Shown: in pieces, positions 3,504 to 57,283 of the stretch
Layout: every line of letters starts with the position of its first letter
Numbering within the stretch: position 1 is the stretch's first letter
Source of the DNA: Geodermatophilus sabuli
Lineage (GTDB): Bacteria; Actinomycetota; Actinomycetes; Mycobacteriales; Geodermatophilaceae
NCBI RefSeq assembly: GCF_010686765.1
Contig: NZ_JAAGWF010000020.1
Span: 62,001-126,000, forward strand
DNA length: 64,000 nucleotides
Direction: 5' to 3'
Notes under the pieces: generated by a model
The model's database searches: none
Seen by the model: only the letters and a program-made list of their open reading frames with translations
What the model was told of the DNA's origin: nothing
Translations under genes and position numbers: made by a program

Positions 3504-4568
3504 GTGGACGTTCTCGGCTCGGGTCACGAACAGGTCGTCTTCTGCTCCGACCCCGGCTCCGGCCTCCGGGCGGTCATCGCGATCTACTCGACGGCGCTGG
3601 GCCCGGCGCTGGGCGGCACGCGGTTCCACCCCTACCCGACCGAGGAGGCGGCGGTCGCCGACGCCCTCGCGCTGTCGAAGGCGATGGCCTACAAGAACAG
3701 CCTGGCCGGCCTCGACCTCGGCGGCGGCAAGGCGGTCATCATCGGCGATCCGCACACCGACAAGACCGAGGCGCTGCTGCGCGCCTACGGCCGGTTCGTC
3801 GAGTCCCTGGGTGGCCGGTACCTGACCGCCTGCGACGTCGGCACCCACAACGCCGACCTCGACGTCGTGGCCCGCGAGACCCGGTACGCGCACGGCCGGT
3901 CGGAGGCCTACGGCGGCTGCGGGGACTCCTCGGTGCTGACCGCCTACGGCGTCTTCCAGGGCATGCGGGCCGCCGCCGAGCACCGCTGGGGCAAGCCCTC
4001 GCTGGCCGGGCGCACCGTCGCGGTGGCCGGCGTCGGCAAGGTGGGCAGCTGGCTGGTCGACCGGTTGGTCGAGGACGGCGCCGACGTGGTGGTCACCGAC
4101 GTCGACGCGGCCGCGGTGGAGCGGGTCCTCGCCCGCCACCCCGCCGTGGACGCCGTGGACGACACCGCGACGCTGGTGCGGACGCCGTCCGACGTCTACG
4201 CCCCCTGCGCCCTGGGCGGCGCACTGGACGACGAGACGGTCGCCGCCCTGGAGGCGGAGATCGTCTGCGGTGGCGCGAACAACCAGCTGGCGCACGAGGG
4301 CACCGCGGAGGCGCTGCTGCGGCGCGGCGTCCTCTACGCCCCGGACTACCTGGTCAACGCCGGCGGGGTGATCCAGGTGGAGGACGAGCGGCACGGGTTC
4401 TCCTTCGCCCGGGCCGAGGCCCGGGCCGCGGGCATCTTCGACGTGGCGCTGAGGGTCTTCCGCGCGGCCGACGAGCAGGGGACCTCACCGGCCGCCGCCG
4501 CCGACCGGCTGGCCGAGGAGCGCATGGCTGCGGTCGGCCGGCTGGCCACCATCCGCCTGCCGCGCTGA
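3504..4568 (+). CDS. vdh: Valine (Leu/Phe/Val) dehydrogenase
   Basis: A 354-residue NAD-dependent amino acid dehydrogenase that oxidatively deaminates branched-chain amino acids. It closely follows Streptomyces Vdh: GHEQVVFC near the start, an [11 protein letters not shown] block, the KAMAYKN and [10 protein letters not shown] lysine regions, the Rossmann motif [11 protein letters not shown] and the [12 protein letters not shown] block. The GTG start is chosen because a TACGCT -10 box sits six bases upstream. It diverges from the sugar importer. The last 17 codons recur as an isolated fragment 1.35 kb downstream. Confidence 0.92.
4512..4562 (+). repeat. Direct repeat, copy A (3' end of vdh)
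   Basis: This 51-base stretch, the last codons of vdh, recurs at 5860-5910 with 46 of 51 bases identical. Weaker similarity continues about 20 bases further with a 3-base gap. The two copies bracket the secreted His/Asp-rich gene and a lower-GC stretch. Confidence 0.85.
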
Positions 4569-5106
4569 ACCCCCGGCGCCGGGACGCCCACCGTCTCGTT
4601 CCTCCGCGGCGCCGTGGATGCAGGTCGCAGTCAGCGCCATTCCCCACTGCGGGCAGTGCGGAATGACGCCAGCCGCCCGTCCCGGCCCCGGTGGTATCGA
4701 GTCCCGGGATCGTGCACACGCAGTGGAGACGCGCCCACCGAGAGTCGAGAAATGGCGTCGCCCGATGCTGTCCGCGAGTAATGAGACCCACCCGCGATCA
4801 CGCGCAGGAATTCGTCGATCGCGGGGTGCAATTGCCGACGGGGGCCGAGGTCGCGCCGGTCCCACATCGGGCCCGACATGCGGCACCGCCCACCAGTGGG
4901 AGCGTCGCGGCGGCCGCGTCCGCCCCGACCACCGTGGTGCTCCGAGGCCGCGCGCCCACTCGGTCGCAGGTCGCCGGTCCGACCATTGTCCGGGTCGAGG
5001 GTCGGGTGAGGGAATGTCGGGAAATGTATTCTTCCGTTACTGCACGGTATCGGTGACAGTTGTCGCGCCATGCTCCATCCCCACACAGTCACCCCGAGGA
5101 AAGCTC
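4569..5106. other. Gene-free, lower-GC stretch after vdh
   Basis: I see no credible coding frame in these 538 bases. Hand counts give 36/60 G+C at 4741-4800 and 37/60 at 5041-5100, clearly below the surroundings. It holds an inverted repeat near its start and a possible TATTCT -10 box at 5027-5032 for the following gene. Confidence 0.6.
4638..4665. terminator. Inverted repeat downstream of vdh
   Basis: Two 13-base arms (CATTCCCCACTGC and GCAGTGCGGAATG) match at 12 positions around a 2-base centre. Its place 70 bases after the vdh stop suits a terminator. There is no T-tract, and an operator for the downstream gene is also possible. Confidence 0.45.
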
Positions 5107-5766
5107 ATGCGACGTAGCTTCACGGTCTCGGCCGTAGCCGCCACCATCATCGGGCTCGGCACCACGCCCGCGCTGGCGCACGACGGGAACGGAGACGAGG
5201 ACAGGCACGGGCGCGGCGGGTTCGTACCGGTCGAGGAGATCGTCCCGGACTACTACGCGCCGGTCACGTTCGACGCATGCGGCGACACGATCACCATGGA
5301 GACCGGGGACGTGCGCCAGGTGGTGGCACGTCAGACCGTGTCGGCGGACAGCGTCTTCACGGAGTTCAGGGGCGGTTGGACGGTCGACCTCGTCCGCCAC
5401 TCCGACCACGCCAGGATCGACGAGCTGGACATCTCGGGCGCGGGCTCGGACGAGACCCGCCCCGACGGGATCTCCATCTACCTGGAGGGGCCGTCCATCC
5501 TCTTCCCGATGGACGACCTCCAGCGCCAGGCGATGAGGGACGCCGGGATCGAGACCGACCTCGCTTACTACGAGCGCGGCGTGGTCGAGATCGAGGTCGC
5601 GCTGGACGCCGCGGGTGTGCCCGTCTCGGAGGAGTGGACCCGGGTCGACGCCCGTATCCGGGACCTGTGCACGCAGTTCGACAGGGACGACGACCACCGT
5701 GACGACCGGCACCACCGCGACCACGCGCGCACGCACCACGAGGGCAAGACGCACCACCGCGGCTGA
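5107..5766 (+). CDS. Secreted His/Asp-rich protein of unknown function
   Basis: 219 residues. The signal peptide is clear: MRRS, a hydrophobic core and a PALA-type cleavage site near residue 24. The mature protein begins with a charged HDGNGDEDRHGRGG stretch and ends in a tail of about 30 residues dominated by His, Asp and Arg, which could bind divalent metals. Two Cys (near 58 and 198) could form a disulfide. I do not recognise the central domain. GAGGAAAG precedes the ATG. The gene is alone between two copies of the vdh 3' end in lower-GC DNA, which suggests acquisition. Confidence 0.75.
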   Translation: MRRSFTVSAVAATIIGLGTTPALAHDGNGDEDRHGRGGFVPVEEIVPDYYAPVTFDACGDTITMETGDVRQVVARQTVSADSVFTEFRGGWTVDLVRHSDHARIDELDISGAGSDETRPDGISIYLEGPSILFPMDDLQRQAMRDAGIETDLAYYERGVVEIEVALDAAGVPVSEEWTRVDARIRDLCTQFDRDDDHRDDRHHRDHARTHHEGKTHHRG

Positions 5767-5781
5767 CCCGCTGACGGACCG

Positions 5782-5813
5782 CAGCGCCGGACCACGCCGG
5801 GGGTCCGGCGCTG
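5782..5813 (+). terminator. Terminator hairpin after the secreted protein gene
   Basis: A perfect 12-bp stem (CAGCGCCGGACC / GGTCCGGCGCTG) around an 8-base loop, 16 bases after the stop codon. Confidence 0.75.
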
Positions 5814-5859
5814 TGCCGCGTACAGAGGGGGCGCGGGCGTCGGGCCCGGGGGCCCCGCA

Positions 5860-5910
5860 GCCGAGGAGCGCATGAGGGCGGTCGGCCGGCCGGCCACCAT
5901 CCACCTGCCG
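5860..5910 (+). repeat. Direct repeat, copy B (orphan vdh 3' fragment)
   Basis: A fragment matching the final codons of vdh at 46 of 51 positions, without the rest of the gene and with the stop region altered. Sequence before it does not resemble vdh, so this is a short end duplication and not a decayed full copy. Confidence 0.85.
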
Positions 5911-6019
5911 CCGACCCGCGGTGCTGGGACCAAGGACCCCTCCCAACGGGCCCGCGAGGGCGCACTCTCGTACCACCCGAGCAGCGGGGATCCTCTCCTC
6001 GGGACGACGGGGTGTCCAC

Positions 6020-6202
6020 ATGAACGATCTGATGACCACTGCCCGTTGCCCCCGGTGCGGAGACGTCGCGGCAGTCGGCTGGACCTGGTGGGAGGACCCG
6101 CCAGGCGCCCGTGCCGTCGAGTACGTGTGCCCCGGCTCCTGTGACCTGACGGCGGAGGAGCTCGTCGTCAGGTTCCCCGAGATGCACCGCTGGGACTTCT
6201 GA
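6020..6202 (+). CDS. Small CxxC zinc-ribbon-like protein
   Basis: 60 residues with CPRC near residue 10 and a second cysteine pair (CPGSC) near residue 39, a spacing suggestive of a single zinc ribbon. Trp residues and an acidic C-terminus (ending in HRWDF) complete it. I do not recognise a family. The ATG is preceded by a GGGGTG that could be a weak ribosome site. A longer in-frame start upstream would add low-complexity sequence overlapping the vdh-like repeat region. Confidence 0.6.
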   Translation: MNDLMTTARCPRCGDVAAVGWTWWEDPPGARAVEYVCPGSCDLTAEELVVRFPEMHRWDF

Positions 6203-6596
6203 CCCCTCCCCGCGCCGGACGTCGCCGAGGGGTCGTTCGTCACTGTGACGCACCGACCGGAGCCGACCCTGGGCCCGGACCACCGCAGGCGCGGGCCCGG
6301 TCGGGACGCGCCGTCCCGCGGTGGTACCGGTCCACGGCTTCTCCGACGACCGAGGGCGGCAGGAGAGCAGGCGACGAGGGCCCCGGCCCGCTGACCGGCA
6401 GCGGTCCGGAGGCCGTGTCCGGAGCCGCACGTGCCCTGGGAGCGACCCCGGTCGGGCGACAGCAGGGGGAGACCCGTGCCCGCCCTCCGTCCGTGTCGTA
6501 AGCTCGGTCGAGACACAGTCACTCAGTCGGGGTCGCCAGGCGGGCCGTCCAGCCCGGAGCTGGACTCCCGGACTCCGTAACGAGGGGGTCGAGCCG
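6203..6596. other. Gene-free stretch upstream of the DUF3073 gene
   Basis: 394 bases without a convincing gene. The only element I can support is a possible TAAGCT -10 box at 6499-6504, which would give the DUF3073 gene a leader of about 90 bases. Confidence 0.5.
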
Positions 6597-6818
6597 ATGG
6601 GGCGCGGCCGAGCGAAGGCCAAGCAGACACGCGTGGCCCGTGAGCTCAAGTACAGCTCACCGAACACCGATCTCTCTGCGCTGCAGAAGGAGCTCGCCGG
6701 ATCCACGCCGTCCTACACCGCCCCTCCCCGGGCGACGGACGACGACGAGGACGACGACGAGTTCGTCGACCGCTGGGCGGACGACGACACGGACGACGAC
6801 TGGGCAGCCAGCCGTTGA
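6597..6818 (+). CDS. DUF3073 family protein
   Basis: 73 residues matching the actinobacterial DUF3073 pattern: a basic MGRGRAKAKQTRVARELKY start, an NTDLSALQKEL block and a highly acidic tail rich in Asp and Glu. Function is unknown; the basic head and acidic tail suggest a nucleic-acid or protein contact. AGGGGG lies a suitable distance before the ATG. Strong hairpins follow it and separate it from the convergent purM. Confidence 0.85.
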   Translation: MGRGRAKAKQTRVARELKYSSPNTDLSALQKELAGSTPSYTAPPRATDDDEDDDEFVDRWADDDTDDDWAASR

Positions 6819-54525: not shown

Positions 54526-54659
54526 GAGGACCGCGGGGCCGCCGATGGTTGCGCCGCGGCAGAAGGACCTCCTCGCCCCCCACCGCTCGCCAGCTCGCGG
54601 CGGGCCCCTGCGAGGAGGCCGACCACGACGGGGCCCGGGTGGCGAGGGACCATCGTCGG

Positions 54660-55967
54660 GTGTCCTCCGCCGCCGACGCGCCACCGGCCCCGACCGGCAG
54701 CCGGGAGCTCGCGCTGATCGGCGCGGCGATCGTGCTGACCGCATTGAACCTGCGGACCGCGGTCACGAGCGTGGGCCCGGTGCTGGAGGAGCTGCAGGAC
54801 GGTCTCGGGCTCTCCAGCGGCCTGGTCGGTGTCGTGACGACGCTGCCGGTGCTCTGCTTCGCCGGCATCGGCTTCGCCGGCCCACTCCTCACCGCTCGGT
54901 TCCGCGACGCGCACGTCCTGGGCGCCGCCCTGGGCGCCATGGCGGCCGGCCTGGTGCTGCGTGCGGTCACCGACTCCTTCGGCGGGTTCGTGGCGGGCAC
55001 GGTCGTGGCCATGACCGGGGGAGCGCTGGGGAACGTGCTCCTCCCGGGCCTGGTGAAGCGGTACTTCCCCACTCGGACCGGCCTGCTGGTCGGCGCCTAC
55101 AGCACGGCCATGACGGTGGGCGGCGCCGCCGCCGCGGTGGTGACCCAGCCGATCGCGGATGCGGCGGGCCCGGGTGGGTGGCGCTGGGCCCTGGGCATCT
55201 GGTCGGCCCTCGCGCTGGTCGCCGCCCTCTCGTGGCTGGCGGTGCGAGCCCGGCCGGGGGCGCGCGGCCGCGCGGTGCGCGCCGTCCGGATGCGCTCGCT
55301 CGCCCGCAGCCGGCTCGCGGTCTGCTTCTCGCTGTTCTTCGGCTCGCTGACGACGCTCGCCTACATCGTCATGGGCTGGTCGGCCCAGTACCTGCGGGAC
55401 GCCGGGCTGAGCCCCGCGACGGCCGGGCTGATGCTCGGCATCAACTCCCTCGCGGTCATCCCGCTCAACGCCACCATCCCCTCGCTGGTGGTGCGCCCCG
55501 GCCTGCAGCGCCCGCTGCTCCTGGTCCTGATGGCGGGCTACACCACCGGCTTCGCCGGGCTGATGGCCGCACCGCTGGTGGTGCCCTGGCTGTGGATGGT
55601 CCTGATCGCGGTCGGGATGGGCACGTTCCCCATGGTGCTCACCCTGCTCGGGCTGCGCGCCCGCACGCCGGAGACCACCGCCGCCCTGGCCACCGTCGCC
55701 CAGGGGGTCGGGTACCTGCTGGCGGCTGCCGGTCCGCTGCTGGTCGGGCTGCTGCGGGGATCCGCCGGCGGCTACACCGGGATGTTCGTCGTGGTCGCCG
55801 TCGCGCTGGTCGGCGCCCTGGCCAGCGGCTGGGTGGTCACGCGGCAGACGTACGTGGACGACGAGGTGCCCGGCTGGTCACCGGCGTCCACGGGCGGCCG
55901 GGTCGTTGCCCGAGGAAACGACCCGCTCGTCCCCGGCGCCGAGCACGGGGGGACGATCGTCGGGTGA
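54660..55967 (+). CDS. MFS transporter, CynX/NimT-like, first of a tandem pair
   Basis: 435 residues with twelve hydrophobic segments. Characteristic parts are LNLRTAVTSVGPVLEELQ in helix 1 and [28 protein letters not shown]. The following gene encodes a close paralogue. Relatives move cyanate, nitroimidazoles or other organic anions; the substrate here is unknown. The GTG was chosen because upstream sequence is low-complexity, and a GACCATCGTCGGG stretch before it matches the GACGATCGTCGGG before the second gene's start. Confidence 0.85.
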   Translation: MSSAADAPPAPTGSRELALIGAAIVLTALNLRTAVTSVGPVLEELQDGLGLSSGLVGVVTTLPVLCFAGIGFAGPLLTARFRDAHVLGAALGAMAAGLVLRAVTDSFGGFVAGTVVAMTGGALGNVLLPGLVKRYFPTRTGLLVGAYSTAMTVGGAAAAVVTQPIADAAGPGGWRWALGIWSALALVAALSWLAVRARPGARGRAVRAVRMRSLARSRLAVCFSLFFGSLTTLAYIVMGWSAQYLRDAGLSPATAGLMLGINSLAVIPLNATIPSLVVRPGLQRPLLLVLMAGYTTGFAGLMAAPLVVPWLWMVLIAVGMGTFPMVLTLLGLRARTPETTAALATVAQGVGYLLAAAGPLLVGLLRGSAGGYTGMFVVVAVALVGALASGWVVTRQTYVDDEVPGWSPASTGGRVVARGNDPLVPGAEHGGTIVG

Positions 55968-57283
55968 CCCGCACCGCCGACAGCCCGCCCGCGCCCCCCG
56001 ACGCCCGCCGCGGGCTGCTGCTCATCGGGACGGCGATCGTGCTCACCGGGTTCAACCTGCGGACGGCGGTCAACAGCATCGGCCCGGTGCTCGAGGAGAT
56101 CGAGACGGGGCTGGGCATCTCCAGCAGCGCCGCCGGGCTCATCACGACCATGCCGGTGCTGTGCTTCGCCGCGATCGGCTTCGCCGGACCACCGCTGGCG
56201 GCCCGCTACCGCGACGGGCACGTGCTCGCCGGCGCGCTGCTGGCGATGGCCCTGGGCCTGGTCGTGCGCGGGCTGGCCGGTCCGTTCTGGCTCTTCCTGG
56301 TGGGCACCGTGCTGGCGATGGTCGGCGGAGCCCTGGGCAACGTGCTGCTGCCCAGCCTGGTCAAGCGCTACTTCCCCCATCGGACCGGCCTCCTGGTCGG
56401 GGCCTACAGCACGGCCATGGCCGCCGGCGGAGCGGTCGCCTCCATCACCGCCGCCCCGATCGCCGCCGCCGCCGGTGCCGACGGCTGGCGCTGGGCGCTG
56501 GGCTGGTGGGCGGTGCTGGCGCTGCTGGCGGCCCTGCCGTGGCTCGCGGTGCCCGCCCGGCCGGGCGCGTCCCGCGACTCGCACGTGACCGTGCGGATGC
56601 GGTCCCTCGTGCGCAGCCCGATGGCGCTCGCGCTCGCCGTCTTCTTCGCCATGCAGTCCATGCAGGCCTACGTGCTGATCGGCTGGACGCCGCAGTACCT
56701 GCGTGACGAGGGGCTGTCGGCGGCCACCGCGGGGCTGCTGCTGGGGATCAACACGATCGTCGTGATCCCGCTGAACGCGGTGGTGCCGGCGCTGTCGGTC
56801 CGCCCGCACCTGCAGCGGCCCATGCTGGCCGGCTTCGGCGTCTGCTACGTCGTCGGGTGGCTGGGGCTGCTGCTGGCCCCGACCACCCTCCCCTGGCTCT
56901 GGATGAGCATCCTCGCCATCGGCCTGGGCACCTTCGCGATGGTGCTCACCCTCATCGGTCTGCGCGCCCGCACCCCGGAGACCACGGCCGCGCTGTCGAC
57001 CGTCGTCCAGGGCTGGGGGTACCTGCTGGCCGGCGCGGGCCCGCTGCTGGTCGGCGTCCTGCGCGGGGCCACGGGGAGCTACGCCGGGATGTTCGTCATC
57101 GTCCTCACGGGCGTCGCCGTGCTCATGGTGACCGGCTGGTTCGTCACCCGGCCACGGTTCGTCGACGACGAGGTGCCCGGCTGGTCGTCGGCCGGGCGGC
57201 ACGGTGACGTCATCGAGGTGGCCGGCACCGAACCGCCGGTCACCGTGCACGTCAGGGAGCCCGGCGGGTCTCCGCGCGGGTGA
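55964..57283 (+). CDS. MFS transporter, CynX/NimT-like, second of a tandem pair
   Basis: 439 residues, aligning along its whole length with the preceding transporter (for example [71 protein letters not shown]). Its GTG overlaps the first gene's stop (GTGA), giving translational coupling. The last 32 bases overlap the 3' end of convergent dcd. Two similar exporters made together may work as separate pumps of related substrates. Confidence 0.88.

Follow-up and report, generated by a model that had tools for sequence, protein, structure and literature searches.

The window, a stretch of 64,000 nucleotides from Geodermatophilus sabuli, includes a complete vdh gene (3504 to 4568, forward strand) that codes for a 354-amino acid protein of the Glu/Leu/Phe/Val dehydrogenase family, with the Pfam domains ELFV_dehydrog_N and ELFV_dehydrog. 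When the 25 orthologues of the genus were aligned, the C-terminus of this protein looked native and no in-frame linker was found after the residues DERH. The end of the gene (4512 to 4563, forward strand) is found a second time at 5860 to 5911 on the same strand as a decayed vdh 3' end, the two copies forming an ungapped direct repeat with 47 of 52 identical nucleotides and a spacing of 1,348 bp. The recurrence of the vdh 3' end at this distance, as stated in the original prediction, was thus borne out, while the weaker similarity claimed past the repeat was not significant, as it was reached by 16% of 2,000 shuffled sequences. Compared in frame, the distal copy matches the vdh gene of the strain itself at 46 of 52 positions and those of other genomes at 44 of 52 at best, being only slightly nearer to the former, and no longer part of vdh was found in the window gap beyond the repeat. 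A protein search of the genome of the strain for the vdh end returned one place, although this search also misses the 52-nt copy; a 58-nt DNA match of 79% is located on another contig.

Repeats of this quality are rare in the window. When 3,000 random 52-mers were taken from it, only two had a match of at least 46 of 52 within about 2 kb downstream, and both sit near 55 kb, at a pair of similar ORFs. These adjacent transporter-like ORFs (54549 to 57283), presumably of the MFS type, show direct matches of 40 to 46 of 52; ARAGORN placed a tRNA-Trp, possibly a false call, at 54777 to 54872 inside the first of them.

The segment between the two copies contains one gene (5107 to 5766, forward strand) for a secreted His/Asp-rich protein of 219 amino acids, which had no Pfam match at 0.01 and which we consider as cargo. 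It is followed by a strong hairpin (5771 to 5823, forward strand; z −3.3), a possible terminator that lacks a T-run; a pattern scan found no T-run terminator after the gene. The single exported gene that had been proposed is thus present. No recombinase was seen among the listed ORFs of the segment when these were judged by eye, in agreement with the claim that it has no transposase or integrase. The segment was also said to be low in G+C, which was not supported: its content of 70.6%, as compared to 73.7% for the window, is unremarkable, with 10% of the equal-length windows being as low, although individual 60-base lines drop to 55–60%. Homologues of the secreted gene were found in 11 other genomes among 112 of the family, always elsewhere than at vdh, and in none of the 25 other genomes of the genus is the gene found at vdh. 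The possibility that the segment is syntenic in all relatives, which the original prediction had named as a way to disprove it, could be ruled out, and a cassette present at other sites with the same end repeat was rejected; the homologues lie away from the vdh ends found in these genomes. In Modestobacter sp. DSM 44400 (G104) a weak homologue shares a contig with vdh but is some 16 kb distant, on the opposite side of the gene.

The foreign DNA does not end at the distal copy. About 530 nt past it had no match in other gaps by blastn, and the copy is thus not at the outer junction. This second stretch, absent from the short ancestral gap, includes a gene for a small CxxC protein of 60 amino acids (6020 to 6202, forward strand) with only weak relatives elsewhere (21 of 112 genomes at E ≤0.001, that of the window strain included). 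The right limit of the insertion is marked by about 150 nt conserved before the next gene (6446 to 6596, forward strand), as defined by blastn to other enlarged gaps, and the gene itself (6597 to 6818, forward strand), which we take to be of the DUF3073 type, served as the downstream landmark in the surveys of relatives. Across the 26 genomes of the genus, the window insert had long matches only to homologues of the secreted gene and to the vdh end, and no cargo was found in common between it and the inserts of other enlarged gaps.

The sequences that follow the two copies differ in their relationship to the native locus. The roughly 50 nt after the upstream vdh stop resemble the empty-site flank of vdh in the nearest relative, G015 (4578 to 4623, forward strand; score 32, reached by 0 of 300 shuffles), which was the strongest among 24 flanks compared. 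To the sequence after the distal copy, in contrast, none of the 24 was similar. The native-looking end and the native-like flank together argue that the upstream vdh end is not at present supplied by an element, contrary to the original prediction. Since the native-like flank is found after the proximal and not after the distal copy, the reverse of what a simple integration model predicts, at least two later events would be needed.

The distance between vdh and the DUF3073-type gene was surveyed in relatives. It is 116 to 325 bp in 86 of 105 genomes from this and other genera; in the genus it is 156 to 261 bp in 15 of 25 genomes and 369 to 9,933 bp in the other ten, and in other genera it is 116 to 325 bp in 71 of 80 and larger in nine. 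One genome of the 26 in the genus (G021) was left out because vdh stops at the contig end. The 80 genomes from other genera are those remaining of 86 after removal of G042 (partial match), G094 (no match), and G059, G062, and G098 (match too near a contig end), with G104 being handled separately. By a single blastn test, five of the 25 genomes of the genus, including the window, have a second vdh 3' end, and the other 20 have none; the same test found none in the 80 genomes of other genera. In G104 a second vdh end is present on a different contig from the full vdh, which brings the total to six of 106 genomes. The gaps of the five are 1,575 to 9,933 bp long, that of G104 being split over two contigs, and the cargo differs, with one cargo common to two species. 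Five genomes other than that of the window thus carry both copies and lack the secreted gene, literally the situation that the original prediction had named as evidence against it, but other cargo lies between the copies, and this points to recurrent integration rather than against integration.

Fourteen genomes (five of the genus and nine of other genera) have an enlarged gap with no copy of the vdh end; therefore genes also enter the gap by other routes, and it is a hotspot even when no such copy is visible. Varied single genes occupy the gap in G009 and G010 (loci L047/L048), G005 (L049), G017 (L054), G019 (L058), and G016 (L060), and across these loci they code for a DUF1996 protein, an ANTAR/GAF regulator, a SnoaL-like protein, and two secreted-looking proteins. 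Three larger gaps from other genera (L136, L187, and L127) have long ORFs and no vdh-end copies; we assume that these ORFs represent an enolase-superfamily-like gene with a GntR-like gene, a P450-like gene, and one with no assignment.

In two of the six genomes with a second vdh end, a gene for a large serine integrase is located next to the native vdh end, and the two integrases are related. The gap of Geodermatophilus ruber DSM 45317 (G014) is 9.9 kb long and includes genes for a large serine integrase, a major capsid protein, a replication-initiator-like protein, a GDSL lipase, and a DUF6221 protein. The integrase, in which a Resolvase catalytic domain precedes a Recombinase domain (Pfam) and which belongs to the integrases of PHROG 95, begins about 35 nt from the second, native vdh end and reads away from it. 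That of G104 is 61% identical and lies within about 35 nt of the second, native vdh end of this genome. A 20-nt arm between integrase and vdh end was found, with one mismatch allowed, in two of 112 genomes, G014 and G104, and only there. The attP inferred by joining the arms is an imperfect palindrome in G104 (16 of 24; 1 in 2,000 shuffles), and its palindrome is not significant in G014 (11 of 24; p 0.48). A scan of genome contigs with the integrase pair found only G014 and G104, and among 397 genomes of the order at 1e-100 there was no further close integrase beyond that of G104 and three lower-scoring ones in the family. A search of viral contigs by two short peptide patterns returned no relatives of the pair, the attR arm was not found in those contigs either, and the replacement vdh end of G104 had no match in phage records. 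The end of contig 61 of G104 (L102) has an ORF that we take to be transposase-like and that may be why the assembly breaks within the element.

Four of the six genomes (G005, G010, G014, and G104) have an in-frame linker of 11 to 14 residues in the upstream vdh at the same exact codon, inside DERHGFSF, and the reading frame stays open in all four. The C-terminus after the linker differs from that of most species and ends in RGW or RDW in three of the four. The downstream copy is native: it has the usual end codon in G014, G104, G005, and G009, and in G005 and G009 it continues into a flank common to other species. In G014 and G104 the element thus carries an end of its target gene and the frame is kept, the feature that characterizes gene restoration. 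No integrase was found within the gap of G005 or G010. An AlphaFold2 model of the linker-bearing G. ruber protein, made from a two-row alignment, had a mean pLDDT of 52.7. We read the linker as a putatively translated attP half-site.

These observations are most likely explained by a family of serine-integrase elements that would use vdh as attB, cross over about 57 codons before its stop, and restore the gene; this reading is based on the related integrases beside native vdh ends, the in-frame linkers, and the replaced C-termini of the relatives. From this anatomy the following pathway can be proposed. Phage-like elements that encode a large serine integrase would use the vdh gene as attachment site, the integrase recombining a core around CACGG. 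Since the element would bring its own version of the last ~57 codons, vdh would be re-made with a short in-frame linker, and the displaced native end would stay at the far side of the element. In the window the equivalent of this probable core, placed by the G014 and G104 junctions within the codons for DERHG, is at 4392 to 4396 (forward strand) and is uninterrupted. That an element integrates at vdh and restores the end of the gene, as originally predicted, is well supported for the relatives, where integrase, linkers, and displaced ends are found. Some details differ, one of them being integration at the very 3' end, as the crossover would lie well inside the gene.

The pair formed by G009 and G010 shows how a linker-free state such as that of the window can arise. 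Their inserts share 1.2 kb at 91% with one gene, DUF1996 in G009; G010 has the linker and G009 has none, a short filler separating the native vdh end of the latter from the insert. In a tree built from the DNA of vdh, purM, and purF, G009 is sister to G012, which has an empty site, with G010 next. The simple reading is that the upstream vdh of G009 was probably replaced by a native copy; if strains with an empty site took part in such recombination, the state of G012 would be accounted for as well.

Of the four features by which membership in the element family was judged, the window has one, a displaced vdh 3' end in the gap between vdh and the DUF3073-type gene; an integrase gene beside this end, the linker, which to judge from G009 can be lost, and the attR arm are absent. 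We interpret the window as a more advanced form of the state seen in G009. We estimate a probability of about 0.6 that it is an old, repaired scar of the vdh-targeting family that holds one cargo gene. An old copy of the element would have been reduced to this gene and 52 nt of displaced vdh end, and the upstream vdh may have been swapped by homologous recombination for a clean native copy, an exchange that would have removed the linker, the left end of the element, and any integrase. The genome of the strain had no match to the serine integrase at 1e-30, and the attR arm motif is absent from the window even with three mismatches, the distal copy being truncated beyond that point. The suggestion that a small cargo was moved in trans found no support, as there was no sign of such movement, and for G005 and G010 the loss of part of a larger element by deletion is an equally good or better explanation.

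The main rival supposes a local event, in which end joining or illegitimate recombination brought foreign DNA into the gap and a 52-nt piece of the vdh end was copied as filler, no integrase taking part in the window strain. The native look of the proximal end and its flank, the distal copy being closest to the vdh of the strain itself, and the entry of other genes into 14 gaps with no repeats are all in keeping with it. It is weakened because none of those 14 enlarged gaps, which lack signs of an element, has such a copy; nor does any of the 86 short gaps, while five other genomes do have one at the same gene end, four of them with linkers and two with an integrase. The copy, moreover, is not at the outer junction, with ~530 nt of unmatched DNA beyond it. 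We thus regard filler copying as unlikely. Improbable to a greater degree is a second-hand capture, in which a stretch with the secreted gene, the decayed vdh end, and the CxxC gene was imported from the scar of another strain and came to lie some 50 nt past the stop codon of the native vdh; it accounts for the native proximal flank and for the distal copy being surrounded by foreign DNA, but no donor was present among the 26 genomes of the genus, where the long matches are those listed above. Chance similarity, for which G+C-rich sequence raises the background, or an ancient tandem duplication of vdh followed by deletion is hardly credible, given that comparable repeats came from the 55-kb transporter pair only and that the gap has no longer part of vdh.

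The repaired-scar reading turns a so far unexplained repeat into a testable history. The full element, the linker-bearing remnants, and the repaired scar can be seen as a graded series of how elements may leave single cargo genes behind. The family would provide a serine integrase for which a probable attB is mapped, within a gene of conserved neighborhood across an actinobacterial family, and a clear case where the attP half-site of a serine integrase would be translated. As a tentative generalization, on which we would place somewhat less than even odds, small phage-like elements of the Geodermatophilaceae carry the last ~57 codons of vdh and write an attP peptide of 11 to 14 residues into the enzyme, the hosts repair vdh and keep the cargo, and single accessory genes thereby accumulate at the locus, the window being an end state.

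The integrases share with the large serine integrases of actinophages the Resolvase and Recombinase domains and the assignment to PHROG 95 (e.g., 35% identity to that of Mycobacterium phage LastHope), but all 613 phage records matched were below 60% identity. In integration of the Bxb1 type, the attB of a serine integrase is likewise located within a host gene, groEL1, and the C-terminus of the gene product is altered; here a homologous replacement of ~57 codons would be supplied. The G014 element resembles capsid-bearing phage satellites in its size of less than 10 kb and in having genes for an integrase, a replication-initiator-like protein, and a major capsid protein; no terminase, portal, or tail gene was recognized among the eight G014 proteins compared to PHROGs; it may be a decayed prophage. 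A literature search found no paper pairing valine dehydrogenase with attB, and one on Geodermatophil-, integrase, and prophage returned, as far as titles and the opening of abstracts tell, none on vdh-targeting elements. That genomic islands can bring, within their attP, a substitute for part of the target gene is established (PMC10111431, PMC12884075). In those islands, as proposed here, site-specific integration takes place inside a protein-coding gene and the replacement keeps the gene whole (PMC10111431, PMC12884075). The family proposed here differs from them in its target, vdh, its serine integrase, and the in-frame linker of 11 to 14 residues in the enzyme. The target gene and the putatively translated linker mark it as a variant of the gene-restoring islands.
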